Below are positions 5,054 through 35,307 of a stretch of DNA of 64,000 nucleotides, piece after piece. Location: the NCBI RefSeq assembly GCF_003171675.1, contig NZ_QFZQ01000002.1, positions 124,001 to 188,000 on the forward strand, read 5' to 3'. The position numbers and the translations under genes are program-made. Below the pieces are notes generated by a model that saw nothing but the letters and a program-made list of their open reading frames with translations, was not told the DNA's origin and did no database searches. Every line of letters starts with the position of its first letter. Within the stretch, counting starts at the first letter, position 1. This DNA is from Reichenbachiella versicolor (GTDB lineage Bacteria > Bacteroidota > Bacteroidia > Cytophagales > Cyclobacteriaceae).

Positions 5054-5659
5054 ATGTCCAAAATACTCGTTCTATTTGCTCATCCAACCTATGAACACTC
5101 TCGGGTAAACCAAGCTCTAATTGAAAGCATAAGTAAAAAAAAGGGGGTAATTGTTCATGACTTATATGAAAAATATGCTGACTTCAATATTGATGTCAAG
5201 TATGAACAGGAACTACTTTTGAAGCATCCAATTGTCATTTGGCACCATCCCTTGTATTGGTATAGTTGTCCCCCACTGATGAAACAATGGATTGATATGG
5301 TACTGGAATACAATTGGGCGTATGGTCCAAATGGAAATGTGCTTAAGGGTAAAAAAATTATGAATGCCATTACTACTGGAGGAAGTCGAGAAGTTTATTG
5401 TACCGAAGGATCTAACAATTACACTATTAACACATTTCTAAAACCATTTGAGCAAACCGCAACTTTATGCGGAATGGACTATTTACCTCCTTTTTCTGTG
5501 ATGGGAACCAATTTAATTACAGATGAAGAATTAATAGAAGCTACACAGCAGTATAACGTAGCCATTGACCTGTTACTTCAAGAACAACTTTCTGACAATG
5601 ATCTTGAACAATGCGAATATTTAAATGATTTACCAGAATTAAAAGATATCGAATTATAA
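5054..5659 (+). CDS. kefF: KefF-like NAD(P)H oxidoreductase, ancillary protein of K+ efflux system
   Basis: A 201-residue flavodoxin-fold quinone reductase-like protein. It starts with ILVLFAHPTYEHSRVNQAL, the FMN-binding motif of the NQO1/KefF/KefG family, and carries IWHHPLYWYSCPPLMKQWID, the central flavin/substrate region. In the family these proteins bind and activate the glutathione-gated antiporters KefB/KefC. Here the stop codon TAA overlaps the ATG of a KefC-like gene (TAATG), so the two are translationally coupled, which supports the assignment. The exact KefF versus KefG subclass cannot be decided by eye. Confidence 0.88.
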   Translation: MSKILVLFAHPTYEHSRVNQALIESISKKKGVIVHDLYEKYADFNIDVKYEQELLLKHPIVIWHHPLYWYSCPPLMKQWIDMVLEYNWAYGPNGNVLKGKKIMNAITTGGSREVYCTEGSNNYTINTFLKPFEQTATLCGMDYLPPFSVMGTNLITDEELIEATQQYNVAIDLLLQEQLSDNDLEQCEYLNDLPELKDIEL

Positions 5660-7542
5660 TGAGTGGAGACATACTTTTTAACGCCATTATATTTTTAGCT
5701 GGAGCTATTATATGCGTTCCTATTGCTAAAAAATTCGGTTTGAGTTCGGTTCTTGGATATTTATTCGCAGGTATCATCATAGGTCCTTATGTCCTAGGTT
5801 TTGTAGGTGAAGAGGGCGAAGACATCTTGCATTTTGCAGAATTTGGAGTAGTTATTATGCTGTTCCTAATAGGGTTGGAAATAGAACCGTCAAGTTTTTG
5901 GAAAATGCGAAAGAGCATAGTAGTTATGGGAGGAGCTCAGGTAATTATTACCTTAGTAATGGCTGACATCATATTCATTCTACTAGGATTCGACTGGAAA
6001 GTATCCTTAGTCATTTCCATGGCAGTGGTTCTTTCTTCTACAGCAATAGTGTTACAAACCTTGAAAGAAAAAGGATTAATGGACACGTCCTATGGTGCAG
6101 CTTCATTTTCAATTCTTCTTTTTCAAGATATCATTGTAATCCCGATGCTTGCGATTATACCTCTATTGAGCGACCCTGAAAAAGTAATACATGCAAGTGA
6201 TGATCATGGTATCAATATTTTAGAAGGCTTGCCTTTAGCCGTACAAGGTGGAGCAATTATTCTTTCCGTCGTATTAGTCGTATTAATGGGTAAATACCTG
6301 ATCGTCCCTATGCTAAGATTGGTAGCTATTACTAAACTGAGAGAACTGCTATCAGCCTCTGCTTTACTAATTGTATTCTTACTGGCGCTATCTATGGAGA
6401 TAGTTGGATTAAGTCCGGCTCTTGGAGCCTTTCTAGGAGGCGTAGTACTCGCAACTAGTGAATTCAAACATGAACTTGAAAGTAATCTTGAACCATTCAA
6501 GGGTCTATTATTAGGGCTATTTTTCATGGCTGTAGGAGCCTCTATTAATTTCATAGTGATCAATGAAAACCCGGGTATGATTGCGGGATTGGTGACAGGT
6601 ATCATCATTATGAAAGCAATAGTAATTTATGCTGTAGGCCACCTATTTAAGTTAAAACAAGACCAGAAGTTATTGCTTAGTGTAGGTTTAGCTCAAATCG
6701 GTGAATTTGCCTTCGTATTACTTTCATTTGCTTTTCAACTTAGTATTTTGGATCGAAACCAGCTTGACATGATGCTGGTAGTAACAGCACTAACAATGAC
6801 TTTAGCTCCTATTTTAGGAGTCATCAATGAACGCGTTGTTTTACCACATGTAGGCACAAAGGAAATAGCATCAAGACCAATGGACCATATAGCCAAAGCT
6901 CAAAAAATAATACTTGTTGGTTTCGGACATTTTGGAAGTACTGTTGGCCGTTTTCTGAGATCCTACGGAATAGAGGCCACTGTATTGGATCACAATTCTA
7001 ATCAAGTTGACCTACTTCGTAAGATGGGATTTGAAGTGTACTATGGTGACGCTACCAGAATGGATCTATTAGAGTCTGCTGGTATAGCTGATGCTGAACT
7101 TTTAATTTGTGCTATTGATGATCCTGACACTACCAATACTCTGGTAACTATGGTTCAAGAAAAGTATCCAAAATTGAAATTGATGGTAAGAGCCAAAAGC
7201 CGATATGATGCCTATGAATTGTTGAATATGGGAGTTGAACATGTCTATCGAGAGTCGCTAGAGACTTCTGTAAAACTAGCTGGAGATGTTTTATCGCATT
7301 TAGGGTTTAGGAAATATGGAATAGTACGACAAGCTCAGAACTTTATAAAGTACGATGAAAAGAGCCTGAGAAGACTAGCATCTCAACCAAGAAACACTGA
7401 AGAATATATTTTCAGAGTTAAAGAAGAAATAGCTCAATCAGAAAAGTTGCTTGAGGAAGACCTTAAGCGAGGTTTGATAGACACCAACCATCACTGGAAC
7501 AGTGAATTGATGAGAAAAGATTCTTATACTGGAGAAAGTTGA
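5659..7542 (+). CDS. kefC: KefB/KefC-type monovalent cation:proton antiporter (CPA2) with TrkA-N domain
   Basis: A 627-residue membrane transporter. About the first 390 residues form a multi-span Na+/H+ exchanger (CPA2) domain with conserved LGYLFAGIIIGPYVLG and the SPALGAFLGGVVLA stretch. A cytosolic TrkA-N/RCK domain follows (about 415-530) with the Rossmann motif GFGHFGSTVGRFL and an acidic residue at the end of strand 2 (VLDHNS). It would exchange K+ for H+ and acidify the cytoplasm during electrophile stress. It is translationally coupled to the upstream KefF-like gene and ends 20 bp before a strong inverted repeat that probably terminates the operon. Glutathione gating is inferred from the family. 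Confidence 0.92.
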   Translation: MSGDILFNAIIFLAGAIICVPIAKKFGLSSVLGYLFAGIIIGPYVLGFVGEEGEDILHFAEFGVVIMLFLIGLEIEPSSFWKMRKSIVVMGGAQVIITLVMADIIFILLGFDWKVSLVISMAVVLSSTAIVLQTLKEKGLMDTSYGAASFSILLFQDIIVIPMLAIIPLLSDPEKVIHASDDHGINILEGLPLAVQGGAIILSVVLVVLMGKYLIVPMLRLVAITKLRELLSASALLIVFLLALSMEIVGLSPALGAFLGGVVLATSEFKHELESNLEPFKGLLLGLFFMAVGASINFIVINENPGMIAGLVTGIIIMKAIVIYAVGHLFKLKQDQKLLLSVGLAQIGEFAFVLLSFAFQLSILDRNQLDMMLVVTALTMTLAPILGVINERVVLPHVGTKEIASRPMDHIAKAQKIILVGFGHFGSTVGRFLRSYGIEATVLDHNSNQVDLLRKMGFEVYYGDATRMDLLESAGIADAELLICAIDDPDTTNTLVTMVQEKYPKLKLMVRAKSRYDAYELLNMGVEHVYRESLETSVKLAGDVLSHLGFRKYGIVRQAQNFIKYDEKSLRRLASQPRNTEEYIFRVKEEIAQSEKLLEEDLKRGLIDTNHHWNSELMRKDSYTGES

Positions 7543-7773: not shown

Positions 7774-9588
7774 ATGTCTGACTCTTTTGCCGCTACTGAA
7801 ACTGGGATTGAAACTATGCCTACAGATTGGATATACAATGACATTCAAATAGCGTTTCCCATAAAAGACTTTCCACACATCAATTCTCTTATTTCGCAGT
7901 ATGCGTTACACATGAAGAGCCATAACGACTCTATTTATCAGTGGGCTAAGACTTTTACTATAGTACAAAAACAGCAAGCTACTAAATCTCTTTCTAATGA
8001 ATTAATCTACCAAACTGGTTCAAACCAAACCAAAAAACGAGTTGTCGAAGATAAGATACTTGAATTAGCAGAGAATCAATTGATCATAGGAGGTGCTGGT
8101 AGTGGAAAAACTACGACTCTCAAAAGATTATACCTTCATCAAAAGACGTCTGACTTAAAAAACAGTAGATATAAGACCGCTATTTTAATCAGGTTAAGAG
8201 AATTAAAGTCTGAAAGTATATCACACGAAATACTTAAAATATTAAATATCAAGACTCACCTCAAAACATTCGAAAGCGTCTATTTTATTAATGACAGTCT
8301 CGGTCAACGAGTTCAAAAAACAAAACTTACGAGATTAGAATATGTTGGTGAGCAAAAAATTGATGAGTTTGTTACGAATATTCTAAATGCTGGGAATACT
8401 ATTCTATTTTTAGATGGGCTAGATCAAACCCCATTGAACGTACAAGCCGACATCAAAAGAAATATCGAACAAATTGCCTCTAGTTTAACAACTTCTAAAA
8501 TAATCCTTACCTCTAAAGGAAATTATGATAAGACTAAAAATAAGGGGTTTAAGACATACCAAATATCGCCATTAGATTCAGTCTCTGCTGCTACTCTGTC
8601 CAAAAACTCTTTGAATGATAATAGTGATCTTTTTTTCAAATTATTAACCCAAAAAACATACGTAGATATAGCCTATAAGCCTCTTATATTTAATTTATTG
8701 GTATATCATTTTGAACATTATCATGAGCTTCCAAATTACTACTTCGAAATATATAATAGAACCTCAACCCTACTAGTCAAAAAATGGCACCAAAACAGTG
8801 AACTTATAGCTTCATTTGATGCAGATCAAAAACTTGATTTTTTAAAAGAAATAGCTTTTTATTTCTCATATCCAGAACAAAAAATCACTTTCTCATTAGA
8901 GAATATTAACGCTGTATATCAACATCTCTACTCAAAGTATGACTTACCAAAAACAGGTATTGAAATCATATTACAAGAAATAGAAATTCATACTGGCTTG
9001 ATCGTAAAAGGATCAGATAGCCATTATGAATTCTCTCATCTTACAATTCAAAAATATTTATTTGCTGAATATTTAGTAAATAAACCTATTGATGCGAAAA
9101 GTATTGAACAGTTTTTACAAGTTCCTGAAGCTTACGCCATTGCAACATGTATAACTTCATCATCAGAAAGTTGGATGGCTAATCTATTACTTAATCCCAG
9201 TTTTGGACGTTCTAAATTTCATGGTAAGAAAAGGCGCAAGGAACTTTTCAACTTATCTCTGTTCACCTATCTCGAAAGATTGATCAATGAATCACCAAGG
9301 TTTTCGGTTTCAATGGATTTAGGGTATGTAGTGATCTATCTATTATTTCATGCGAATGAAAAAAAGACAATTTCATTTAAAAACACACTTAACAAGCTCT
9401 TTTTAACCCCTAACGTTCAAAAGAGTTTTTTATTAGCACTAGAAAACTATGATGTTAGTAATAGAAACACTGACGCTTACTACATTAAGCTAAAGAAGGA
9501 TGTAGAGCAATTTGATGAAGTTAAATATCCTGTAGAAGGCTACTTACCAAAAAACATCGCCATTCAAATCGAGAGACAAAAGTTTTAA
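7774..9588 (+). CDS. NACHT-type STAND NTPase
   Basis: A 604-residue predicted cytoplasmic STAND ATPase. The P-loop is GGAGSGKTT (106-114) and Walker B is LFLDGLDQ (211-218), the NACHT form with two acidic positions. The later FSHLTIQKYLFAEYL block (about 420-434) matches the conserved motif after the NACHT winged-helix region. The first 100 residues and the last 170 show no recognised effector or repeat sensor, so the protein is short for an NLR-like defence protein. It stands alone between a kef operon and a Fur-family gene on the opposite strand. Bacterial NACHT proteins are often antiphage; others are regulatory. A defence role here is inference. Confidence 0.82.
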   Translation: MSDSFAATETGIETMPTDWIYNDIQIAFPIKDFPHINSLISQYALHMKSHNDSIYQWAKTFTIVQKQQATKSLSNELIYQTGSNQTKKRVVEDKILELAENQLIIGGAGSGKTTTLKRLYLHQKTSDLKNSRYKTAILIRLRELKSESISHEILKILNIKTHLKTFESVYFINDSLGQRVQKTKLTRLEYVGEQKIDEFVTNILNAGNTILFLDGLDQTPLNVQADIKRNIEQIASSLTTSKIILTSKGNYDKTKNKGFKTYQISPLDSVSAATLSKNSLNDNSDLFFKLLTQKTYVDIAYKPLIFNLLVYHFEHYHELPNYYFEIYNRTSTLLVKKWHQNSELIASFDADQKLDFLKEIAFYFSYPEQKITFSLENINAVYQHLYSKYDLPKTGIEIILQEIEIHTGLIVKGSDSHYEFSHLTIQKYLFAEYLVNKPIDAKSIEQFLQVPEAYAIATCITSSSESWMANLLLNPSFGRSKFHGKKRRKELFNLSLFTYLERLINESPRFSVSMDLGYVVIYLLFHANEKKTISFKNTLNKLFLTPNVQKSFLLALENYDVSNRNTDAYYIKLKKDVEQFDEVKYPVEGYLPKNIAIQIERQKF

Positions 9589-9625
9589 ATTGGATAAATA
9601 AAGTGATTCCTTCTTTGAAAAAAGG

Positions 9626-10003
9626 TCACAAACAGTCTTTGCAACTTCCAGTCAATAAAATTGACATGGTTTCAATTTTATAATCTTGTATTTGAGGAAT
9701 TTCCATATTTATATCAATACACTCTGTTTTTCCACACTGAGTGCACTGAAAGTGAGGATGAACTTGCGTACAACCCGTATTAGAACAGCATTTGTATTTC
9801 GAATACCATTTAGCTCCATTTTTTCCTATGAAAGAATGAAGCTCCCCATCGTCTTCTAATCGATCAAGTATTCTATACACAGTTGTTCTATTCATTTCAT
9901 CACCTAGCTTATCGAGCAGTTCTTGAATAGAAATTGCTACCGTACTATTCTCAAAGAGTTTTAAAAGAGAATTAACTGATTTTGTCTTTCGGATAACACC
10001 CAT
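9626..10003 (-). CDS. Fur-family transcriptional repressor, probable zinc-responsive Zur
   Basis: A 125-residue Fur-family protein: winged helix (about 8-60) with MNRTTVYRILDRLEDDGEL as the recognition helix region, then a dimerisation domain with HPHFQCTQCGKTECID and a C-terminal GSCKDC. The two CxxC pairs form the structural zinc site typical of Fur/Zur. It is divergent from a MerC-like gene, with two similar palindromes between the start codons. The flanking genes (FolE, COG0523, DUF1826, metal ABC transporter) are those usually found in Zur regulons, so Zur is more likely than Fur or PerR. The metal specificity is inferred from context only. Confidence 0.82.
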   Translation of the reverse strand: MGVIRKTKSVNSLLKLFENSTVAISIQELLDKLGDEMNRTTVYRILDRLEDDGELHSFIGKNGAKWYSKYKCCSNTGCTQVHPHFQCTQCGKTECIDINMEIPQIQDYKIETMSILLTGSCKDCL

Positions 10004-10016
10004 ACCGCAAGTTTAT

Positions 10017-10069
10017 CGCACCTATGTTGCGTTTACAAGCTAGCTGATTATTTTTGCAACCGTGTTGCG
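10017..10069. promoter_or_regulatory. Two palindromic operator-like boxes in the fur-family / merC divergent promoter
   Basis: Box 1 is CGCACCTATGTTGCG at 10017-10031 and box 2 is TGCAACCGTGTTGCG at 10055-10069. Both fit YGCAMC-N3-GTTGCG, a 6-3-6 inverted repeat, with centres 38 bp apart. They fill the 82-bp gap between the start codons of the Fur-family gene and the MerC-like gene, where a self-regulating repressor would bind. The dyad is seen directly; binding by the adjacent regulator is inferred. Confidence 0.6.
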
Positions 10070-10085
10070 ATATTAAAATTCTTTG

Positions 10086-10484
10086 ATGATACGATTACAA
10101 AAAATTACACAACCAGATACACTGGGTGCGACTGCAAGTACACTTTGTATTGCACATTGTCTGGCTACTCCTTTATTATTTATTGCCAGTGCTTCATATA
10201 GCACAGAGTCACCTACATGGTGGAAGGTAATAGACTTAGTGTTTTTAGGCATTTCATTCTTCGCTATACTACAAACAAGTAGAACGACTACAAAAGCATG
10301 GATAGGAAATGCACTCTATGTAAGTTGGGGTATACTCACCGCGGCTATCCTTAATGAAATATTCGAAGTTGTACACTTACCTGAACTAGCAGTTTATATA
10401 CCTGCTATAGCTTTGATTAGTCTTCATATTTACAACCAGAGATATTGTAAATGCGTTGGAGATAACTGTTGTTCAAACTCATAA
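10086..10484 (+). CDS. MerC-domain membrane protein
   Basis: A 132-residue protein with four predicted membrane segments. It has the MerC-type pair of cysteines around the first helix (ASTLCIAHCLATPLLF) and ends in a Cys-rich tail (YCKCVGDNCC). MerC proteins transport mercury, but in zinc-regulated clusters of many bacteria homologues are found next to Zur and are thought to handle zinc. The ATG at 10086 is preferred over the TTG one codon earlier. It is first in the plus-strand operon, directly downstream of the two palindromes, with the folE gene starting 4 bp after its stop. Confidence 0.82.
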   Translation: MIRLQKITQPDTLGATASTLCIAHCLATPLLFIASASYSTESPTWWKVIDLVFLGISFFAILQTSRTTTKAWIGNALYVSWGILTAAILNEIFEVVHLPELAVYIPAIALISLHIYNQRYCKCVGDNCCSNS

Positions 10485-10488
10485 TTTT

Positions 10489-11160
10489 ATGGAAGATAAA
10501 GTACTTGAAGAGATAGAAATCATAGGTGATAATCATGCATCTACTAATGTAGAAACACCTATGCGTGACGATGCCTTCGATAAGTCTAATGATGAAAAAA
10601 TCACCAATATTCAAAAGTATTTTGGTCTAATCATGGAAGAATTGGGCTTAGATATGAATGATGACAGTTTATCTGGAACTCCCTATAGAGTAGCAAAAAT
10701 GTATGTAAAAGAGCTATTTTATGGTCTAGACCCAAAAAACAAACCGAAGTTATCGACCTTCGAAAACAAATATGGGTATGGCAAGATGTTAGTTGAACAG
10801 AATATCACTATTGACTCAGCATGTGAGCATCATTTTTTACCTATCACTGGAAATGCTCACGTAGCATATATACCTAAGGATCGCGTAGTTGGTTTGTCAA
10901 AGATCAATAGATTAGTTAATTATTATGCTCACAGACCCCAAGTACAAGAGAGACTTTGTTTGCAGATTATGAAAGACCTTCAAGAGGCTCTGGGAACTGA
11001 AAGCGTAATGGTGGTTGTGTCAGCCAAACATTTATGTGTTTCCTCAAGAGGAATAAAGGACAAGTCTAGTTTCACCACTACAATGGAATACTCAGGAGAA
11101 TTTGAAAAAGAAGAGGTTAGAAACGAATTTTTCAACTGTCTAAATAATAAGGTAGACTAA
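10489..11160 (+). CDS. folE: GTP cyclohydrolase I (type IA)
   Basis: A 223-residue enzyme converting GTP to 7,8-dihydroneopterin triphosphate, the first step of folate/pterin synthesis. It has an N-terminal extension of about 35 residues, then GTPYRVAKMYVKELFYGL, the zinc site CEHH (two ligands) and KHLCVSSRGI (third Cys ligand). The catalytic motif SSRGIKD is intact, so it is the zinc-dependent IA form rather than zinc-independent FolE2. The true start is taken as ATG 10489; a TTG at 10456 would overlap the preceding gene. Its place behind a Zur-like gene suggests a zinc-limitation paralogue, a known arrangement in Pseudomonas. A second folE elsewhere in the genome is predicted but not visible. 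Confidence 0.93.
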   Translation: MEDKVLEEIEIIGDNHASTNVETPMRDDAFDKSNDEKITNIQKYFGLIMEELGLDMNDDSLSGTPYRVAKMYVKELFYGLDPKNKPKLSTFENKYGYGKMLVEQNITIDSACEHHFLPITGNAHVAYIPKDRVVGLSKINRLVNYYAHRPQVQERLCLQIMKDLQEALGTESVMVVVSAKHLCVSSRGIKDKSSFTTTMEYSGEFEKEEVRNEFFNCLNNKVD

Positions 11161-11200
11161 TTTTCTAAAATAGAGATAGGTTTAAATTAGATCGCTGATT

Positions 11201-11827
11201 ATGCTTAAATGCACCTCTCTGAGTTTTGCATATAGTCCAGAAACTCAATTCCGATTTCCAGATTTCACAATAAATAATGAGGAGCATCTGACTATTCTTG
11301 GTGAATCGGGAATAGGAAAAACTACACTCTTGCACTTGCTCGGAGGTTTGCTTATACCAAAGTCTGGAAAAGTAGAGCTGGATGGAGTTAATCTCAGTAC
11401 TTTACCCAGTAGTCGAAGAGATAATTTTCGAGGACAAAACATTGGAATGATATTCCAGTCGTCCCATTTTATACAGTCATTGTCCATTGGTGAGAACATG
11501 GCTATGGTGCAATACCTTGGAAAGGTAAAGAAAGATAATCATCGTATCAACGACATTCTGACGAGGCTAGGCTTAGAAAATAAAGTCAAAAAACGTCCGA
11601 ACGAACTTAGTCAAGGGCAGCAACAGCGAGCATCGATAGCCATGGCTGTATTAAATAGTCCAAAAGTTATTTTGGCGGACGAACCCACATCTAGTCTTGA
11701 TGATAAAAACTGCAACACTGTAATTGAACTGTTAAGAGAAGAAGCCTCATTATCTAAGGCTAACTTAGTGGTCATTACTCATGATCAAAGACTAAAGAAT
11801 GAGTTTCAAAAGATCATAGAGCTATGA
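11201..11827 (+). CDS. ABC transporter ATP-binding protein (LolD/MacB type)
   Basis: A 208-residue ATPase with Walker A GESGIGKTT, signature LSQGQQQRASIAMA, Walker B VILADEPTSSLD and switch histidine ITHDQR, all intact. Its length and the motif ADEPTSSLD place it with LolD/MacB/FtsE-type ATPases that work with FtsX-like permeases. Its stop overlaps the permease ATG (ATGA). Similar ATPase/permease pairs occur in zinc-regulated operons of other bacteria (Zrg-like systems), consistent with the cluster. Confidence 0.9.
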   Translation: MLKCTSLSFAYSPETQFRFPDFTINNEEHLTILGESGIGKTTLLHLLGGLLIPKSGKVELDGVNLSTLPSSRRDNFRGQNIGMIFQSSHFIQSLSIGENMAMVQYLGKVKKDNHRINDILTRLGLENKVKKRPNELSQGQQQRASIAMAVLNSPKVILADEPTSSLDDKNCNTVIELLREEASLSKANLVVITHDQRLKNEFQKIIEL

Positions 11828-13011
11828 AAATATTCTGGCTGAGCGTAAAAAATGTAATCTCACGACCGATGAGTACGGTTTTGAGTCTTTTACTTCTAGC
11901 TCTGGGTGTAGGTATTATTTCCCTACTTCTTCAACTCAACAGATATCTTGAAGATGAGATGACCAAGAATATAAGAGGTATAGATCTTGTTATTGGAGCC
12001 AAAGGAAGTCCCTTGCAATTAATCCTATCAGCAGTATATCACATAGATGACCCTACAGGAAACATCTCTCAAAAAGAGGCTAATAGAATCTTAAAAAACA
12101 GAATGGTAGATTTTGGTATTCCATTATCCTATGGAGATAATTATGCTGGATACAGAATAGTCGGTACTACTCATGAATACACTGAGCTGTACCATGCAAC
12201 ACTAGCTGAAGGAACACTTTGGAATAAAACATTTGAAGTTACGTTAGGATCAAGAGTCGCCGAAGTTCTAAATCTTAAAATTGGTGACACTTTTAGTGGT
12301 TCTCATGGTCTAATGAATAGTATTGAAGTACATGAAAATGACTCTTATAAGGTAGTAGGTGTACTAAATCCATCAAACTCCGTTCTTGATCAACTCATTC
12401 TTACACCTACGGAAAGCGTCTGGGAAACACATCATGATGAAGAGGAACATCATGAGGGAGATGAAGAAAAAGAAATTACTGCTATGCTCATTGGATTCAA
12501 GAACCCTGCCGCATTGATACAAGTCCCTAGAATGATCAATGAAAAAACCAATATGCAAGCAGCAGTTCCTGCCTACGAAATGGATCGCCTTTACAAGCTC
12601 ATGGGAGTTAGTATTACAGTATTGAAGTATATAGCTGCTGTAATAATTACAGTATCAGGAGTAAGTATATTTTTTAGTCTCATTAGTACTCTTAAAGAAA
12701 GAAAATACGAACTAGCCATCATGCGAACTTATGGAGCCTCTCGCTGGCAATTGTTATTAATGATGCTCTTTGAAGGGCTCGTATTAACAATTGTAGGATT
12801 TTTATTGGGTATATTAATCTCATCAGTTAGTTTGAATTTTATTTCGCTGTTACTTGATTCAAGCTTTCATTATTCATTTAGCACCATGCAATGGACAGCA
12901 CAGGAATACGTTCTTATGGTGTCTACATTAGGGATAGGATTAATAGCTGCATTAATACCAGCGCTAAATGCTTTCAATCTCAATATATCAAAAACGCTCT
13001 CCAATGCTTAG
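11824..13011 (+). CDS. FtsX/MacB-type ABC permease with His/acid-rich loop
   Basis: A 395-residue permease with one N-terminal membrane segment (about 15-37), a large periplasmic MacB-like domain and three C-terminal membrane segments (about 270-385), the standard type VII ABC layout. Within the periplasmic domain lies THHDEEEHHEGDEEKE (about residue 200-216), a loop rich in His, Asp and Glu that could bind Zn2+. Genes overlap on both sides: ATGA with the ATPase upstream and an 8-bp overlap with the next gene. A direct role in metal handling is inferred from the loop and the operon. Confidence 0.87.
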   Translation: MKIFWLSVKNVISRPMSTVLSLLLLALGVGIISLLLQLNRYLEDEMTKNIRGIDLVIGAKGSPLQLILSAVYHIDDPTGNISQKEANRILKNRMVDFGIPLSYGDNYAGYRIVGTTHEYTELYHATLAEGTLWNKTFEVTLGSRVAEVLNLKIGDTFSGSHGLMNSIEVHENDSYKVVGVLNPSNSVLDQLILTPTESVWETHHDEEEHHEGDEEKEITAMLIGFKNPAALIQVPRMINEKTNMQAAVPAYEMDRLYKLMGVSITVLKYIAAVIITVSGVSIFFSLISTLKERKYELAIMRTYGASRWQLLLMMLFEGLVLTIVGFLLGILISSVSLNFISLLLDSSFHYSFSTMQWTAQEYVLMVSTLGIGLIAALIPALNAFNLNISKTLSNA

Positions 13012-13432
13012 ATTAAGTCTTATCATATTGATGTTGTTGGTTTCTCCAGCATTTGCTCAAATCAAAATTACTTGGGAGACACTTGCTGATGTTTCATTCA
13101 CCGATAAATGGAGTGAAGAAGAACAAGGTTATTATTACTATCCTCATTTTGGCCCTCGTGTCAAGGCTATGAGAAATAAAGAGATATTCTTAAGAGGATA
13201 TATGCTTCCACTGGAACCAGAGGAAGGGTTTTATGTACTATCTAAAAACCCGTATGCCTCATGTTTCTTTTGTGGATCAGGTGGACCTGAAACTATTGCA
13301 CAAATAAGATTCAAACCTGGCCACCCAAAATTCAAAATGGATCAAATTGTTACAGTAAAAGGAATCTTAAAACTGAACAAAGATGATGTCTACACTTGTA
13401 ATTATTTAATAGATGAAGCCGAGGTATTTTAA
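13004..13432 (+). CDS. Secreted DUF3299-like protein
   Basis: A 142-residue exported protein. It begins with a clear signal peptide (LRLSLIILMLLVSPAFAQ), then a compact beta-rich domain with IFLRGYMLPLEPEEGF and ASCFFCGSGGPETIAQI, ending TVKGILKL...CNYLIDEAEV. This pattern matches DUF3299 proteins, which accompany LolD/FtsX-type transporters in zinc-regulated operons. The ATG at 13004 is chosen because it places the signal peptide at the N-terminus; an earlier in-frame ATG at 12968 would lie deep inside the permease gene. The two Cys in CFFC may bind metal or form a disulfide. Function is unknown. Confidence 0.75.
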   Translation: MLRLSLIILMLLVSPAFAQIKITWETLADVSFTDKWSEEEQGYYYYPHFGPRVKAMRNKEIFLRGYMLPLEPEEGFYVLSKNPYASCFFCGSGGPETIAQIRFKPGHPKFKMDQIVTVKGILKLNKDDVYTCNYLIDEAEVF

Positions 13433-13447
13433 TGATAATCATCATTA
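13430..13447. promoter_or_regulatory. Fur-box-like inverted repeat upstream of the LCIB-type gene
   Basis: TAATGAT-AATC-ATCATTA is a perfect 7-4-7 palindrome that begins at the stop codon of the DUF3299-like gene. Fifteen of 19 positions agree with the classical Fur box. There is no T-tract after it, so an operator is as likely as a terminator. It lies about 100 bp before the carbonic anhydrase gene and differs from the GTTGC-type boxes at 10017-10069. Confidence 0.4.
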
Positions 13448-13543
13448 ATGAGTAAAACGTTATAAGATCAAAATTTCAAAAACCTATACTAATATATATT
13501 TACAAGACAAGTTGACATTTAAACCTCGATTACAATTCCGACT

Positions 13544-14257
13544 ATGTTACAAAGAAAGTTTGACAAAATAGTCCAAGAACATTATCCTAATGCCATGGAC
13601 GCGAAAGACACATCCATCCATTATTTAGGATTAATGCAGAATGATCATAACATTAATGTATCTCGAGTTTTGATGGCTACATCGGTATGTTCTGACGATA
13701 TTAATGTTCCTTCCACCACTTTTTTCAATGTATTATTTGGCCCATTTATTCTTGGAGGCTTAGGCGGATTACCCTTTGCAGGTATTACAGGTATGACTGC
13801 TTTTGCTCATCACATTCCGGATGAAGGAACAGCTTTCATTTTCTATGGCCCTCATATTGGTGTAACTCATGATGGAGAATTAGGGAAAATGTATAGACCT
13901 CGTCAAGAAGAAACTGGAAACTCCTGTGGTGCATTAATGCTTGCCTTAAGTAGGCTTCAAGATGAAAATTACAAACCGACCATCAGTGAAAATGATTATC
14001 AACAAATGAAACTAGAAGAAAGTTTACTTCCTTATAGAAATGAATTTGTAGATAGTGAAAACCCTCAAAAAGCGATTACTGATACTGCTTACAAGATAAT
14101 CGATCAGAAAGTGCATGAATATGTAAAAGCATGTAAAAACGAATTTAGTGTCGATAAAGTAGCTCTTTTGGGTGGAGTTGTTATCAATACAGACTATGGG
14201 TTAGATGACTATTTCGATGCTCGAAATTTTCAAGTAGTCGATTTAAAAAGTCTTTAA
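13544..14257 (+). CDS. LCIB/LCIC-type (theta-class, beta-like) carbonic anhydrase
   Basis: A 237-residue protein of the limiting-CO2-inducible protein B family. Recognisable blocks are TSVCSDDIN (Cys49, Asp51), GGLGGLPFAGITGMTAFAHHIPD (His89/His90) and ETGNSCGALMLAL (Cys128), which supply the expected Cys-His-Cys metal site in the beta-CA-like fold, and YGPHIGVTHDGELGKM between them. These enzymes interconvert CO2 and bicarbonate; they were first known from algal and diatom plastids and have bacterial relatives. No signal peptide, so cytoplasmic. Its place inside the zinc island parallels the extra carbonic anhydrase in Pseudomonas zinc-starvation loci and suggests a back-up enzyme with low zinc demand or another metal. 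Activity is inferred. Confidence 0.8.
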   Translation: MLQRKFDKIVQEHYPNAMDAKDTSIHYLGLMQNDHNINVSRVLMATSVCSDDINVPSTTFFNVLFGPFILGGLGGLPFAGITGMTAFAHHIPDEGTAFIFYGPHIGVTHDGELGKMYRPRQEETGNSCGALMLALSRLQDENYKPTISENDYQQMKLEESLLPYRNEFVDSENPQKAITDTAYKIIDQKVHEYVKACKNEFSVDKVALLGGVVINTDYGLDDYFDARNFQVVDLKSL

Positions 14258-14448
14258 GAAGAATCTAACTAATATATAACAAGTAGCTTCAGAGACCTCT
14301 GTCATAGCAATGAAACTCTACGTTTAAAATTCCAAAGTATACAGGTAGCCAATTAATATGACCAAAAGACTTATTGATATAATTTAACAGTACGTTAATA
14401 GGTACTTTGCGACCATCTAATAAAGAATATCAAAATTTGAGGCGGAAA

Positions 14449-14480
14449 GTGAACTAGTTCATTTAGATATGCTAGTTCAC
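14449..14480. promoter_or_regulatory. Inverted repeat upstream of COG0523 gene
   Basis: GTGAACTAG (14449-14457) is repeated in reverse complement as CTAGTTCAC (14472-14480). The left arm also forms the 12-bp palindrome TGAACTAGTTCA. It ends 20 bp before the ATG, placing it in the promoter or leader of the GTPase gene, where an operator or RNA hairpin would act. Confidence 0.4.
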
Positions 14481-14499
14481 AAGAAGCGATTGATTTACG

Positions 14500-15411
14500 A
14501 TGGAAGCGATTATTACTGTTGTTGGATTTTTAGGGGCTGGCAAAACAACACTTTTAAAGCGATTATTGGAAAGCTGCCTGAATACTGGCTGGAACCCATT
14601 TATCATTCTCAATGATTACGAAAATGCGAGTCTAGACATACAACAATTTACCGAAAAACTAGATCAAAAATGGGTTCGTGGACTTAGCGGTAGCTGCATA
14701 TGTTGTAGTGGAATAAGTGAACTCAGAGACTTTGTAAATAATATCCCTGAAAGAGAGAATGGTATAACGCTCATTGAAGCAAATGGAACATCTGATGCTT
14801 GTTCTTTGATGGGTTTTTTAGGAGTAGGAATAGATGAACGTTTCCTTCCTCCTATTCAAGTATCTGTCGTTGATGTAAAAAACTGGCAAACAAGAGGTGA
14901 GCATAATGAGCTAGAAGCCAATCAAATTCAAGTATCCTCATTAATCGTTCTTACTCATACTGATAATACCTCTACAGAAAGAATATCTGAAGTAACTGAA
15001 GAATTACTAAAACTAAATCCTAATGCCCAAATATTAGACTTTGATAAGATTGATGTAGCATTGCTGCCATCACTAGTACCCTCATCCAACCAAGCACAAA
15101 AACTTGAACATTTAAAGGCTCATTGGTCTTCTTGTTCGATTGACTTACCAACCCTTCCTGATCTTGAGTGTATCCAAGAGATCTGTAAAAACATCCCAAA
15201 TAGTATTTTAAGAGTAAAAGGCTGTACTGAAGTCAATAATGAAGAACAGTTTACTTACTTCGAAAGAACTCCTGATGGAACTGTCAATATCAGACCCTTC
15301 AATGGTATTCCTATTACTGGAGCTAAACTATTGACTGTAGGTCCTGGCAGTAATTCATCTTCTCTTGAGAATATTGTAAACGAAAGTATAGCACACGCTC
15401 AATCAAGATAA
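14500..15411 (+). CDS. COG0523 G3E-family GTPase, probable zinc metallochaperone
   Basis: A 303-residue G3E P-loop GTPase. Walker A is GFLGAGKTT (9-17). The family's metal-binding CxCC motif is CICC (66-69), followed by an IEANGTSD switch region; the usual guanine-specificity NKxD is THTD (about 153-156), a variant seen in some members. The C-terminal CobW_C-like domain contains RVKGCTEV. COG0523 proteins deliver Zn2+ to client enzymes under zinc limitation (ZNG1/YeiR group). It heads a set with PhoX and DUF1826 genes and lies downstream of an inverted repeat. A second COG0523 gene at 34318-35307 has the canonical NKSD and a His-rich linker, so the two probably differ in client or conditions. 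Confidence 0.87.
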   Translation: MEAIITVVGFLGAGKTTLLKRLLESCLNTGWNPFIILNDYENASLDIQQFTEKLDQKWVRGLSGSCICCSGISELRDFVNNIPERENGITLIEANGTSDACSLMGFLGVGIDERFLPPIQVSVVDVKNWQTRGEHNELEANQIQVSSLIVLTHTDNTSTERISEVTEELLKLNPNAQILDFDKIDVALLPSLVPSSNQAQKLEHLKAHWSSCSIDLPTLPDLECIQEICKNIPNSILRVKGCTEVNNEEQFTYFERTPDGTVNIRPFNGIPITGAKLLTVGPGSNSSSLENIVNESIAHAQSR

Positions 15412-15447
15412 CAAAAGCTAAAAAGTAAATAACTGTATCTAAGCACG

Positions 15448-17136
15448 ATGTCAAAAGAATTAACGAAAGAATATAACCGTAGAAAATTTTTAACCTTCTT
15501 GGGAAAGGCAGGTATTGGAGTAATTGCGTTTCCTACCTTTCTAACCAATTGTGGCACTAAGTCTAATCCTACTATTTCAAATGAACTAGCTGAAGAATAC
15601 CTAGACAAGCTGAAAAAAACACCTCTTAAAGGGTTAATTCCTTCAGATAAGGACGACCTTCTACTAGCTGAGGGTTTGAATTACCAGACTTTGATCAAAT
15701 GGGGTGACAAAATTAGTGACACTGATACTTTTGGGTTCAATAATGATTTTATCTGCTATATCCCATTAGATGAAAATAATCCTAAAGAAGGTCTTTTATG
15801 GGTTAACCATGAATATACCAACCCTTTGTTTGTATCTGGTTTCAACAAGTATGAGTTTGAAAACCCACGAGAGCATCGAAGCAAAGATCAAATCACAAAA
15901 GAATTATACAATGTAGGTGGAAGTATCATCAGAATAAAAGAAGAGAATGGTACGTGGAAAGTAATACCAAACGACGCCTACAATAGAAGAGTGACTGGTC
16001 ATACACCTATCTCTCTCAACTGGGACGAACCTATTGAAGGTAAGACTGAAGTCATAGGTACTAATAGTAATTGTTCTGGAGGAATCACTCCTTGGAATAC
16101 TTTTTTGACTTGTGAAGAAAACTACGCGGATTGCTTTGGTGAATCCGAGTATGACGAAAGCAATGTGAAAAGCCATAAAGAAAGTAGATATGGTTGGGAA
16201 CAATTCTATAACTATCCTCCAGAGCACTACGGATGGGTAGTCGAAATAGAGCCAAAGACTGGTAAGGCACAAAAGCATGTAGCATTAGGTCGATTTGCTC
16301 ATGAATGCTGTACGCTCTTTGAGCTAGAAGATAAAAGAGTAGTTGCGTACAGTGGAGATGACACTAATGATGAGCACCTATATAAATTTGTTTCTTCAAA
16401 GGCAGGCTCTCTGAAAGAAGGCACGCTCTATGTAGCTGATACGATTAATGGAAAATGGCTTTCATTGGACTGGGAAAGTCAACCAATATTAAAGTCAAAA
16501 TTCAAGAACCAAACAGAGGTGCTAGTGAGAGTGAGAGAAGCTGCCAAACTACTTGGAGCTACTGAACTCAATCGACCTGAAGACATTGAAATTGATCCTA
16601 TAACTGGACATATTTTAATCTCATTAACAAATAACAAACCAAAAGGCGACTATCATGGGTCTATTTTAAAAATAGAAGAGACTGATGGAGCTTTTGATTC
16701 ACTTACTTTTAAAGCATCTACGTACTTGGCAGGTGGTGAAGAAAGTGGATTCTCCTGCCCTGATAATTTAGCATTTGATTTATCTGGTAATCTATGGATG
16801 ACTTCAGATATTTCCGGAGACTCTATGAATAGAGAAGACAAACCATATGCTCCATTCAAAAACAATAGTCTTTTCGTAATACCAAGGTATGGAGAAGATG
16901 CAGGTAAAGTAATCAGAGTAGCTTCTGCACCTAGAGACGCTGAGCTTACAGGTCCTTGGTTTTCTCCTGATGGAAAAACATTATTTTTAAGTGTACAGCA
17001 CCCTGGAGAACTTACTAGAGATTTGCAAAACCCAACAAGCAAATGGCCATTTGATGAGGATAACATTCCAAAGCCAGCTGTGGTTGCAATTAAAGGAGAC
17101 TTGATAGAAAAAATGAACTTCTTGAATCAAATTTGA
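15448..17136 (+). CDS. PhoX-family (DUF839) phosphatase, Tat lipoprotein
   Basis: A 562-residue exported protein. The N-terminus has a Tat motif NRRKFLTF (10-17), a hydrophobic stretch and a lipobox LTNC (Cys35), implying folded export and lipid anchoring. The body is a PhoX/DUF839 propeller with NCSGGITPWNTFLTCEEN, a highly conserved PhoX block, plus PEDIEIDPITGHILISLTN and GPWFSPDGKTLF. PhoX alkaline phosphatases use Fe3+ and Ca2+ instead of zinc, which fits a location between a zinc metallochaperone and a DUF1826 gene. It starts 36 bp after the GTPase stop, probably in one operon. Not every DUF839 protein is a phosphatase, so the reaction is inferred from family. Confidence 0.83.
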   Translation: MSKELTKEYNRRKFLTFLGKAGIGVIAFPTFLTNCGTKSNPTISNELAEEYLDKLKKTPLKGLIPSDKDDLLLAEGLNYQTLIKWGDKISDTDTFGFNNDFICYIPLDENNPKEGLLWVNHEYTNPLFVSGFNKYEFENPREHRSKDQITKELYNVGGSIIRIKEENGTWKVIPNDAYNRRVTGHTPISLNWDEPIEGKTEVIGTNSNCSGGITPWNTFLTCEENYADCFGESEYDESNVKSHKESRYGWEQFYNYPPEHYGWVVEIEPKTGKAQKHVALGRFAHECCTLFELEDKRVVAYSGDDTNDEHLYKFVSSKAGSLKEGTLYVADTINGKWLSLDWESQPILKSKFKNQTEVLVRVREAAKLLGATELNRPEDIEIDPITGHILISLTNNKPKGDYHGSILKIEETDGAFDSLTFKASTYLAGGEESGFSCPDNLAFDLSGNLWMTSDISGDSMNREDKPYAPFKNNSLFVIPRYGEDAGKVIRVASAPRDAELTGPWFSPDGKTLFLSVQHPGELTRDLQNPTSKWPFDEDNIPKPAVVAIKGDLIEKMNFLNQI

Positions 17137-17153
17137 ATCTAGATAAGCGAAGG

Positions 17154-17168
17154 TTCCTGATTCAGGAA
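17154..17168. other. Short palindrome in the PhoX-DUF1826 gap
   Basis: TTCCTGA-T-TCAGGAA is a perfect 7-1-7 dyad in the 69-bp gap. No T-tract follows, so it may be an operator or a processing hairpin rather than a terminator. Confidence 0.3.
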
Positions 17169-17205
17169 TTGGAATAAAACCTGATATAAAAGGAATTCAG
17201 CATAT

Positions 17206-17877
17206 ATGAGCTCTAAAAACATTATTCCCTCCCTTGATTCCATCTTGGGAGGGCCTGTTCAAGTATCAAGTAAGTCTTGGGAAAATCATCAGATAATAAA
17301 GCAATCAGATGTTAATTTATTTTGCTGGACAAGAGACTATGATCAATCGATAAGCTCATATATCTATGAAGCAGTAATTAATAATGTATCTGAAATAAAC
17401 GTCAAGGTAGAAACAGCATCTATTGAAGATATTTTAATCACTGCTTCTAATCAATGGAATTCCATTATCAGTACTTCGAATACTTCAGGCAATGACTTTT
17501 GGAATGATATTCTGTTTCTGACTACAGATTTTCTAAAACTAACTGAAAAGCCAGGTTGTAATTTACATTTAGGAATAGTTGATGATGAGACTTGCACTCA
17601 ATTTCATATAGACCAATTCGACTACAAACTATTTTGCACTTATTATGGTTCTGGAATAGAATGGCTTCCTGAGAAAGCCGTAAATCGTGAAGGTTTAGGA
17701 AAATCTAATGAGTTGATTATTAAAGACTCTAGTGAAATTCAGAAAATGGAAACATTCGAAGTAGGGATCTTAAAAGGAGACAAATCTCAACACACACCAG
17801 CTACAAAGGGAATCGTATACAGGTCTCCTTCAATAGAATCAAACAATATGAAGAGGCTCGTTTTCAGACTAGATTAG
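17206..17877 (+). CDS. DUF1826 protein of the zinc-starvation set
   Basis: A 223-residue cytoplasmic protein matching DUF1826 in length and in the diagnostic stretch TQFHIDQFDYKLFCTYYGSG followed by IEWLP. DUF1826 genes occur next to COG0523 GTPases and Zur in many bacteria, as here. Reading the residues, H134-x-D136, H196 and R206 follow the H-x-D, H, R order and spacing of Fe(II)/2-oxoglutarate oxygenases (about 60 residues between H-x-D and the distal His, then Arg ten residues later). This catalytic reading is my inference. It is the last gene of the island; a minus-strand radical SAM gene converges on it with only 5 bp between stops. Confidence 0.8.
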   Translation: MSSKNIIPSLDSILGGPVQVSSKSWENHQIIKQSDVNLFCWTRDYDQSISSYIYEAVINNVSEINVKVETASIEDILITASNQWNSIISTSNTSGNDFWNDILFLTTDFLKLTEKPGCNLHLGIVDDETCTQFHIDQFDYKLFCTYYGSGIEWLPEKAVNREGLGKSNELIIKDSSEIQKMETFEVGILKGDKSQHTPATKGIVYRSPSIESNNMKRLVFRLD

Positions 17878-17882
17878 AACGA

Positions 17883-18974
17883 TCATTGGTAAGATTGAAT
17901 ACATACTAAAATCTCGTTAATCTTTTTAATAGTCTCGGTACTAGCTTCAGAAGTCTTTAGCCAACCTAAATGCTGTCTGAGTTGATCAATCACATGTGTC
18001 TTATTTTCAACATTTTTGATGTGAAACTGATCAGGTCTAGAAAGCATATTAATGTAAATGGAATCAATATCAATTAACCCTTCCTCAACTAGCTGCTTAT
18101 GCAGACTTGTAATCGCTGCAACATTCAAAGCACTAATAGTCGGGGCTATTTCCAACTGAACATGTGGACATTCTGACTTTATCACCTTAAGGTTTTGCTT
18201 GATTGTGCTCCAGTCAGAGTCTCGTCTTATCTTCTCCCCTAGTTCTCCTGCTGCATCTATACTAGCGCTTACCGTTACTTTATGGAATTGCTTCCAATAT
18301 TCTATCACCGATTTGCCTTTAAAGTCTAGTAGAGACAGGTTAGTATTATACCTCAGGTGAACACCCTTTTTTTCTTTCTTCAAAAGAAGTTCCAACACCC
18401 TGTAGTGCTGATCCATCACCAGTGGCTCTCCTCCTGCGAAATAGAACTCCTCCACTCCAGAAACTATACTTTCTAGTTGTTGAAAGAACTCGTCTTCCTT
18501 ATTGATAGCCTTTATAATAGCAGTTTTAGCAACATTGGTTCCAGTGGCTTTCGCTTCTTCAAACCATTTAGAGCTGGCACCGTGCCAGCAAGTGACACAT
18601 CGAAAGTTGCATACGTTCGAGAACCGAATATCTAAGTAGACAGGTTTGGAAACAATATCGTCTTGTATTATATCATTGATCTTATACCCATACTTTTCTA
18701 GTGTTTCTTGTCGAATACTCTTCACTCCACTATCCTCAAGATCATAACATCCTCGACATCGCTTATCCTTCTTGCCAGAAAGTAAATTGGATCTAAACTC
18801 GTTGATCTTTACCCCATTCCAGATTTCACCTATTGTTTGCTTATTGATATCTCCAAAAGTAATAGGTGCTATACAGCAAGCTTGACAAAGTCCTCTGGTG
18901 CTGACATGTAGATGCAACCAAGGCATCAAGCAAAAGGCATCATTTCCTTCTATTTTAGAAGTATTTGTGCTCAT
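17883..18974 (-). CDS. Twitch-domain radical SAM protein
   Basis: A 363-residue radical SAM enzyme. The 4Fe-4S/SAM motif is CNFRCVTC (Cys122, 126, 129), followed by AGGEPLV. Ahead of it is an unusual N-terminal Cys-rich domain: C15, C30, C33, C34, C73 and C76, with GDINKQTIGEIWNG, which resembles a SPASM/twitch auxiliary cluster domain normally found after the radical SAM core. This N-terminal arrangement is known for the twitch-containing subgroup. Such proteins often modify peptides or sugars; no precursor peptide or substrate gene is adjacent. It is probably co-transcribed after the DUF1456 and SPOR genes. Confidence 0.85.
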   Translation of the reverse strand: MSTNTSKIEGNDAFCLMPWLHLHVSTRGLCQACCIAPITFGDINKQTIGEIWNGVKINEFRSNLLSGKKDKRCRGCYDLEDSGVKSIRQETLEKYGYKINDIIQDDIVSKPVYLDIRFSNVCNFRCVTCWHGASSKWFEEAKATGTNVAKTAIIKAINKEDEFFQQLESIVSGVEEFYFAGGEPLVMDQHYRVLELLLKKEKKGVHLRYNTNLSLLDFKGKSVIEYWKQFHKVTVSASIDAAGELGEKIRRDSDWSTIKQNLKVIKSECPHVQLEIAPTISALNVAAITSLHKQLVEEGLIDIDSIYINMLSRPDQFHIKNVENKTHVIDQLRQHLGWLKTSEASTETIKKINEILVCIQSYQ

Positions 18975-34317: not shown

Positions 34318-35307
34318 CTAGAGTCGAGACTCTAAAGGACGGACCATATATTGATTGAACAGCTTTTCAAAATATTCTTTTTTAATATCTCGACCAATAA
34401 AGACCAATTTACCAGTTCGATTTGTCATGTCTTCCCAAGGAGTACCATCCGTCGCGACAAAAGAACTATGAGCTGACTGTAGGATTACTCGATTGGGATA
34501 ATCTGGGATCGCTATAAAACCTTTAACCCGATATACTTGATCACGATAAAGATTCGCTATTCTGTTTAGTTCTAGCGTCAGGCTGTTCAAGTCAAGAGGA
34601 TATTGAAAACTAAGTGTGAAAGTCGTGATCTTATGACTGTTGTTGATTTCATGATTATGATTATGATCTTTCAGTGCCGCAGCTGCACCTGACTCTACAG
34701 TCCTTGGCTTTATGGTTCCTACTTCTAGCACTTGACTAATTGAAAACTTACCATGCTCTCCCTTCCAGACCTTGGCTAGAGGATTGATATAATCAATCGA
34801 TGATTCTACCTCTTTCAGTTCCTGAGGATTGACTAAGTCAGATTTATTGACCAAAATACAATCCGCCAATGCTATTTGCCTAAGAGCTTCCTCTGTCTCT
34901 TTTAGCCATATTTTCAGCTGACTTGCATCTACTAAGCAGACCACTTGTTGAAGATCAAAAAACCTTTCTACTTGCCTATCTTCTAGAAAAACCTGAACGA
35001 TCGAACTAGGGTCAGCGATGCCTGTAGTTTCGATGACCAATCGATCATATTGATCTCTATTTTTAGACGCTTCATACAAAATATCCAATAGGCCATCAGA
35101 CAATGAACAACATAGACACCCTGCGCTCAACTCTATCACTTCTTCTACTCCATCCATGACTAGTCCTCCGTCAACATTCGTCTCTCCACACTCATTTTCT
35201 ACTACCAAAATGCGCTCTGGCAAACGCTCTTTGATGAAATGATTAAGGAATGTTGTCTTACCACTTCCTAAGAAGCCTGTAATAATATGTACTGGTATTC
35301 TGCTCAT
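34318..35307 (-). CDS. COG0523 / CobW-type GTPase metallochaperone
   Basis: A 329-residue G3E GTPase with all motifs: Walker A GFLGSGKTT (11-19), CLCC metal motif (64-67), IETTGIADP and NKSD (154-157). A His-rich linker DHNHNH (214-219) precedes the CobW_C domain, another metal-binding feature. It is unlinked to the zinc island by 16 kb and stands alone, adjacent to the cassette region. Family members deliver zinc or cobalt; metal identity is not determinable here. Confidence 0.9.
   Translation of the reverse strand: MSRIPVHIITGFLGSGKTTFLNHFIKERLPERILVVENECGETNVDGGLVMDGVEEVIELSAGCLCCSLSDGLLDILYEASKNRDQYDRLVIETTGIADPSSIVQVFLEDRQVERFFDLQQVVCLVDASQLKIWLKETEEALRQIALADCILVNKSDLVNPQELKEVESSIDYINPLAKVWKGEHGKFSISQVLEVGTIKPRTVESGAAAALKDHNHNHEINNSHKITTFTLSFQYPLDLNSLTLELNRIANLYRDQVYRVKGFIAIPDYPNRVILQSAHSSFVATDGTPWEDMTNRTGKLVFIGRDIKKEYFEKLFNQYMVRPLESRL

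Follow-up and report, generated by a model that had tools for sequence, protein, structure and literature searches.

A predicted Zur-controlled zinc-starvation island with an LCIB-type carbonic anhydrase and a PhoX phosphatase in Reichenbachiella versicolor

Here, we describe a ten-gene island of Reichenbachiella versicolor that we are confident is controlled by Zur (zinc uptake regulator), such that a Fur-family repressor and the genes reading rightward from it would respond to zinc. The island lies in a stretch of 64,000 nucleotides, here called the window (genome G000, 5.25 Mb; contig C13, positions 124001 to 188000), and the repressor and its nine neighbors very probably constitute a zinc-starvation operon. 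Zur is by far the best reading of the regulator because tests of its predicted operator, or box, elsewhere in the genome and across the phylum point to Zur-type genes. An earlier note on this DNA listed the ten genes, all of which are in place according to the open reading frame (ORF) list and Pfam. Its proposal of a zinc-starvation island that includes an LCIB-type carbonic anhydrase (CA) and PhoX is upheld at the level of sequence, in which the genes, the operators and their conservation are directly visible.

The operator was defined from relatives of the island. A contig scan with closer LCIB alignment, in which LCIB similarity was the sole criterion, supplied 80 loci (the best 80 of 138), of which 76 bear titles that we take to denote Bacteroidota, two are titled “bacterium,” and two (L076 and L117) bear names of other phyla; the genera concerned are presumably marine. 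Several genomes carry two identifiers (L087 is G181 [L026], L050 is G278 [L143], L053 is G077, L088 is G118, L104 is G097, and L117 is G155), and counts over the 80 loci are not independent events because many of the loci are closely related. In an unbiased count of 5-base dyads across 278 upstream regions of homologous genes from 81 sources, GCAAC-N3-GTTGC ranked first, with 68 occurrences versus 3.4 expected, giving AAATGCAAC-N3-GTTGCATTT as the operator core. A matrix built without the window sequence found 127 sites in the 80 LCIB loci versus 10 in reversed sequence; 81 of the 127 fall in upstream regions that make up 69 kb of 1,462 kb, an enrichment that is partly circular because the matrix was derived from those regions. 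Boxes of at least 10 bits occur in 60/80 loci versus 4/80 in the reversed control. Boxed upstream regions were counted for merC (15/19), the ABC transporter ATPase gene (11/19), COG0523 genes (22/41, mostly distant homologues), lcib (25/80), zur (6/19), phoX (3/13), folE (2/13), and the DUF3299-like gene (2/40), with none for the permease gene (0/20) or DUF1826 (0/4). All six island-type zur genes in these loci adjoin a box.

The window itself holds two strong sites, both between zur and merC and 38 bp apart: box 1 (positions 10014 to 10034; TATCGCACCTATGTTGCGTTT; 20.8 bits), which has one core mismatch and was also recovered in the genome scan, and box 2 (positions 10052 to 10072; TTTTGCAACCGTGTTGCGATA; 19.1 bits), which has the exact core. 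Similar spacing recurs in relatives, in which 15 of 17 close box pairs lie 37 to 40 bp apart. A third match, at 324 to 344 (15.5 bits), was rejected as functional since it lies inside a kinase gene, and a further matrix site in the window reaches only 9.0 bits.

Elsewhere in the genome, the same operator marks genes typical of zinc regulation. With up to one mismatch allowed, eight operator sites were found in the whole genome, versus two for the reversed pattern, each of the eight upstream of an ORF and six of them outside the window. One precedes an ABC ATPase gene with a TonB receptor gene and two permease-like genes (L128:9944-16049, contig C16), which may together serve in the uptake of zinc or a metallophore. 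A box pair, also 38 bp apart, adjoins a second Zur-like Fur-family gene, zur2 (L129:9713-10147, minus strand, contig C20), which is divergent from genes for a His-rich protein and a TonB receptor (10176 to 13139); the two Zur paralogues of this genome thus seem to share one operator. Other boxes stand before a His-rich protein gene followed by dcd, before a HisI-COG0523-CysS-MetH-QueD cluster on contig C22 (the names dcd, MetH, and QueD were assigned by reading), and before a gene for a flavoprotein (Pyr_redox_3, with the C terminus CCDGECVC) that is followed by an SBF-family transporter gene (L131:10103-12272, contig C21). Described Zur-regulon members include COG0523 and paralogues of HisI, CysRS, and QueD (PMC2770081), and these three occur here, away from the island, under the same box.

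The phylum-wide test covered 296 genomes not selected for island genes. The exact box occurs in 48 of them and the reversed pattern, by our reading of the scan table, in 7. Loci from 29 of the 47 other matching genomes, taken in order of listing, were queried with the island genes and the boxed genes of the R. versicolor genome: 25/29 had a homologue within 1.5 kb of the box, versus 4/45 control stretches (p = 1e-11), the controls having been chosen by hand, with PhoX and FolE hits discounted where they had brought the stretch in. Two of the four control hits are a single gene of the window (34318 to 35307), and another (L141) lies inside a PhoX island. A Zur-family gene is among the homologues in 15 of the 25 positive loci and in none of the 45 controls, and merC-like and zur genes flank the box in 8 of the 29 (L163 to L168, L174, and L175).

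The island begins with the leftward repressor gene zur1 (9626 to 10003, minus strand; 125 amino acids; PF01475, 39 bits against a cutoff of 23.1), which reads divergently from merC across a 79-bp gap. On the plus strand follow merC, for a MerC-family membrane protein (10086 to 10484; PF03203, 66 bits; the ATG at 10086 is the start, and the ORF is listed from a TTG at 10083); a folE paralogue for a type IA GTP cyclohydrolase I (10489 to 11160; PF01227 [GTP_cyclohydroI], 197 bits, and TIGR00063; likely ATG at 10489, ORF listed from a TTG at 10456); a LolD/MacB-type ABC ATPase gene (11201 to 11827; PF00005 [ABC_tran], 118 bits); a LolC/MacB-type permease gene (11824 to 13011; PF02687/PF12704 [FtsX/MacB_PCD], 52/39 bits); and a gene for a secreted DUF3299-like protein (13004 to 13432; likely ATG at 13004, ORF listed from 12968). 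These five overlap or are separated by gaps within 40 bp. Longer gaps of 111 and 242 bp precede the gene for the LCIB-type (theta) CA (13544 to 14257; PF18599 [LCIB_C_CA], 176 bits against a cutoff of 25) and that for a COG0523 metal-chaperone GTPase with a G3E domain (14500 to 15411; PF02492 [cobW], 92 bits; CICC, a CxCC motif, at residue 66, and no CobW_C hit). A gap of 36 bp then precedes the gene for a PhoX-type phosphatase with a lipoprotein-like N terminus (15448 to 17136; PF05787, 327 bits), and one of 69 bp precedes that for a DUF1826 protein (17206 to 17877; PF08856, 139 bits), the last of the island; the next gene is on the opposite strand. A simple scan of 9500 to 18100 found no terminator-like site on the plus strand. 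A perfect 12-bp palindrome (TGAACTAGTTCA) stands before the COG0523 gene at 14447 to 14480; it was seen in the window and its copies and not in the relatives’ loci searched. The window also encodes a second COG0523 GTPase (34318 to 35307, minus strand), which has a His-rich stretch and a boxless vicinity and is 27% identical to the boxed COG0523 protein of contig C22.

From these features we infer that zinc is the signal, that Zur represses, that a single transcript runs from merC to DUF1826, and which metal each enzyme uses. Zinc-loaded Zur1, perhaps with Zur2, would bind the two tandem operators between zur1 and merC and thereby repress both zur1 and the genes reading rightward; under falling zinc, the products made would be MerC, the FolE paralogue, the ABC/DUF3299 system, LCIB, the COG0523 protein, PhoX, and the DUF1826 protein. 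The logic of such an island would be mixed: the ABC system and MerC would handle metal or metallophore traffic, FolE and LCIB would be additional copies of zinc enzymes aided by a metallochaperone (the COG0523 protein, a zinc-transfer GTPase), and PhoX would be the one nonzinc enzyme.

Relatives retain the association of these genes to various degrees. Homologues of island genes (tblastn, E ≤ 1e-3) within 10 kb of LCIB were found in the 80 loci for COG0523 (35), the DUF3299-like protein (28), the permease (26), the ATPase (20), Zur (19), MerC (19), PhoX (13), FolE (13), and DUF1826 (9), whereas three nonisland genes of the window (5659 to 7542, 7774 to 9588, and 17883 to 18974) used as queries gave 0/80. 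The co-occurrence of island genes near LCIB is more than chance. Most COG0523 matches are distant (21 to 35% identity), with the island type (at least 64%) in 7 loci; likewise, 13 of the 19 zur matches are distant (26 to 31%), with the island type (46 to 60%) in 6. Twelve of the phoX matches are at 72 to 77% identity, and one is weak at 25%. Five loci (L083, L099, L081, L047, and L097) retain much of the set: all ten genes have homologues in L083, where the COG0523 is a distant one, and all except DUF1826 in L099. In the order, LCIB is present in 19/241 genomes, and the neighborhood search in Cytophagales that the earlier note had suggested yielded another island gene in 4 of 14 LCIB stretches: zur, folE, and COG0523 in L026, folE in L027, the permease in L031, and merC and folE in L033, with distant zur and COG0523 matches. 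Scattering of the genes in relatives, which that note had named as evidence against an island, was seen in part: in many cases the set is reduced or spread over a few kilobases, with the boxes staying alongside. Twelve LCIB loci have, within Zur-boxed operons, a gene for a DinB-family protein with a lipoprotein-like start (e.g., L058:9360-9953).

Several observations weigh against Zur control of the entire island. No box in the window precedes lcib, COG0523, or phoX (best scores of 1.5, −7.1, and −18.3 bits), and the 111- and 242-bp gaps could accommodate separate promoters; 20 of the 80 LCIB loci are boxless; the other 10 of the 14 order-level LCIB stretches lack any other island gene; in L087, a relative from the same family, the set is reduced to zur, folE, lcib, and COG0523; and NCBIfam ranks the repressor as PerR (28.5 bits) over Fur (23.1) over Zur (18.4), all far below the cutoff. 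With only 4/14 order-level stretches holding another island gene, the set is not fixed. Because the window shows no separate box for the half from lcib to DUF1826, control of that half by Zur depends on read-through from merC.

Alternatively, the island might comprise two units, with Zur controlling only merC through the DUF3299-like gene, and lcib, COG0523, phoX, and DUF1826 served by promoters in the gaps that answer to other signals, such as CO2 or phosphate. The boxless longer gaps and the boxless LCIB loci speak for such a division, which we nonetheless consider unlikely, given that relatives have their own boxes before lcib, COG0523 (mostly distant paralogues), and phoX at the frequencies given above, and that no terminator-like site was detected on the plus strand by the simple scan. 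Two further phoX loci, L142 and L144 (72 to 75% identity), also have their own box; L143 (77%, from the same genome as L050) and L145 and L146 (50 to 51%) are boxless phoX loci. Because lcib and phoX are preceded by their own boxes in some relatives, LCIB and PhoX are likely members of the Zur regulon. Among these relatives, Hyunsoonleella pacifica (L093) is boxed at lcib, and Hyunsoonleella ulvae (L099) at phoX as well as at merC and the island.

The enzymes themselves bear on the earlier note’s view of the locus as a coordinated swap to zinc-sparing enzymes, for which there is mostly no support. The island FolE retains the CEHH and HLC motifs, which we take to be its zinc ligands, and its PDB matches are GTP cyclohydrolase I; a zinc-free isozyme or FolE2 (type IB) was ruled out by the type IA profile and these motifs. 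A second type IA folE with the same motifs lies on contig C21 (35171 to 35704). In LCIB, C49, D51, H104, R118, and C128 are invariant in 15 sequences, the Cys/His/Cys set being presumably the zinc ligands and Asp/Arg the dyad; the PDB matches are 6kfs and PtLCIB4. Having both the family profile and these site residues of theta CAs, the protein is predicted to be one. The genome encodes one LCIB, one alpha-CA, and one PhoX; no beta-CA or PhoA was found in it, gamma-CA and PhoD not having been searched for. Of the second copies that the earlier note thought worth seeking, a second folE and an alpha-CA thus exist, and the search for a beta-CA or a PhoA that might have been replaced found none. 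The phosphatase has no obvious swap partner because no PhoA was found; among 16 genomes queried, 4 have PhoA (one genome counted twice). Presence of beta-CA was also discarded as a feature that separates boxed from boxless LCIB genomes (25/30 versus 14/20; Fisher p = 0.31; 50 of the 80 genomes picked by eye, made up of every one of the 20 boxless genomes plus 30 of the 60 boxed ones). PhoX enzymes use iron and calcium rather than zinc, and the island protein matches 4amf/3zwu, which we take to be PhoX from Pseudomonas fluorescens. Its subfamily is rare (at E ≤ 1e-100, two genomes out of 395, one of them R. versicolor), so that a phylum survey of PhoX was unusable as an independent test. Membership of PhoX in a nonzinc family and the existence of a second folE would favor a strict exchange of zinc enzymes for zinc-free counterparts. 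We judge this improbable: FolE and LCIB keep their zinc-ligand residues, and neither a beta-CA nor a PhoA that could have been replaced turned up in the genome, so that only PhoX fits zinc sparing.

In relatives, LCIB has a further companion. An unnamed family of ∼165 amino acids adjoins LCIB in 31 of the 80 loci (e.g., L097:10824-11321), directly after it in 30 and before it in L110; the match in L067 is weak (41 bits), and those in L070 and L096 are in pieces. The family occurs in 30 boxed loci versus 1 boxless locus, L067 (p = 0.0004), an association that is not fully independent because boxed loci served as the training set of the profile; it also lies within 1.5 kb of boxes from the phylum scan in L172 and L173. 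No match at E ≤ 0.01 was obtained in Pfam (one member) or NCBIfam (two members). A structural model (predicted local distance difference test [pLDDT] of 85.1) returned CAs for all 50 PDB matches listed, with E values of 2.8e-6 to 2.0e-5 and query template modeling (TM) scores of 0.58 to 0.73, and the protein is accordingly predicted to fold like a beta-CA. In our reading of the alignment, the first Cys remains (C9) and other residues occupy the positions of the His and the second Cys, so that two of the three zinc ligands are apparently missing. Profile-profile comparison of the family with LCIB and with eight beta-CAs, 4 of 12 retrieved stretches having yielded no sequence through a motif filter, was unsupportive (probabilities of 0.4 and 0.3 percent), leaving the predicted structure as the source of the beta-CA likeness. 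The family was not detected in the window, the rest of the genome not having been searched for it. We tentatively suggest that Bacteroidota may have a zinc-starvation CA system that differs from the gamma-class one of proteobacteria, consisting of Zur-controlled LCIB and, in many relatives, an adjacent protein of predicted beta-CA fold that lacks the His and second Cys ligands, the latter either acting as a subunit together with LCIB or being a zinc-free CA, and that the PhoX subfamily may likewise be under Zur, which would tie phosphorus supply to zinc.

The identity of the regulator also deserves scrutiny, as a sensor of another metal or of peroxide (of the Fur, PerR, or Mur type) would make this an island serving that stress. 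The higher, if uniformly weak, NCBIfam scores for PerR and Fur point in that direction, as does the iron and calcium requirement of PhoX. The NCBIfam scores do not discriminate among Zur, Fur, and PerR. Zur1 retains CxxC pairs and the sequence HPHFQC, its best PDB sequence match is 3mwm (“putative metal uptake regulation protein”), and it is 46 to 60% identical to the six zur genes of the LCIB loci that adjoin the same box. With that box preceding typical Zur-regulon genes in the genome and the phylum, we regard a sensor of another kind as highly improbable. That the island serves resistance to mercury or heavy metals, as the MerC family match might suggest, is extremely unlikely, given the lack of mer operon partners among the Pfam matches of the island and the merC-like and zur genes that flank the box in the phylum scan.

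The transport genes resemble a known Zur-controlled system. The permease has a periplasmic loop rich in His and acidic residues (HHDEEEHHEGDEE), and in 18 homologous stretches, each 380 amino acids or longer, the richest 24-residue segment contains 3 to 11 His. For the DUF3299-like protein, so called in the earlier note, Pfam gave no match at E ≤ 0.01 and DUF3299 (PF11736) only below threshold (E = 0.053), with 6 of 15 homologues matching PF11736 at E ≤ 0.1 (best, 0.0022). Sequence and profile searches of PDB found nothing useful. Its AlphaFold model (pLDDT, 86.4) has 4hsp (PA4066) as the top PDB match (E = 5.8e-5; moderate TM score of 0.54), followed by weaker matches to unrelated nucleic acid-binding proteins; the assignment is thus sustained, and the protein is predicted to be PA4066-type. 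In Pseudomonas aeruginosa, PA4064-4065 are reported to form a MacB-type exporter that acts on a pyochelin-cobalt complex and is controlled by Zur, and PA4063-PA4066 and the Vibrio Zrg system, also Zur-controlled, likewise combine a separate ATPase, a MacB-like permease, and a PA4066-type protein (PMC11481552). Unlike those systems, the island has no gene for a His-rich periplasmic protein like PA4063/ZrgA among its ORFs, and the His-rich stretch is within the permease. His-rich proteins do stand at other boxes of this genome. Pyochelin cannot be assumed to be the substrate of the island transporter.

Compared with described regulons, the island is partly familiar. With the Zur/COG0523 regulons of Haas et al. 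2009 (PMC2770081), it shares Zur, COG0523, DUF1826 (which, per a figure legend there, appears among Zur-regulated COG0523 clusters), and paralogues of zinc enzymes, a pattern that FolE and LCIB appear to fit. In the available text of that paper, the Zur-regulated CA and FolE are a gamma-class CA and FolE2, whereas the island has LCIB and type IA FolE; “PhoX” and “phosphatase” are absent from its main text. The island LCIB has the family and zinc-site residues of LCIB/theta CAs (PtLCIB4 5b5y and 6kfs), which in the sources available are known from algal CO2 concentration, whereas here the link is to zinc starvation. PhoX aligns overall with 3zwu and 4amf, members of the same family; the island setting differs in its Zur context and rare subfamily. 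Zur boxes reviewed in the accessible text of PMC6103462 are likewise palindromic, and more than one box occurs at Streptomyces coelicolor znuA and Bacillus subtilis yciC, but the core GCAAC-N3-GTTGC differs from them, and neither “Bacteroid” nor “Flavobact” occurs in the main text of that review. Among the matches listed in the literature searches, with subscription papers mostly outside them, we found no report of LCIB with Zur, PhoX with Zur, or Zur in Bacteroidota. What is likely new is the Bacteroidota operator, the placement of LCIB and one PhoX subfamily as likely regulon members, and the ∼165-amino-acid family in relatives.

A predicted Zur operator for Bacteroidota would make zinc regulons readable in many genomes. 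It would also move the LCIB-type CA from algal CO2 concentration into the physiology of zinc starvation and make one PhoX subfamily a candidate zinc-response gene. Because both CAs and PhoA-type phosphatases are constrained when zinc is scarce, the island may tie together, at the genetic level, how heterotrophic bacteria use zinc, carbon, and phosphorus.

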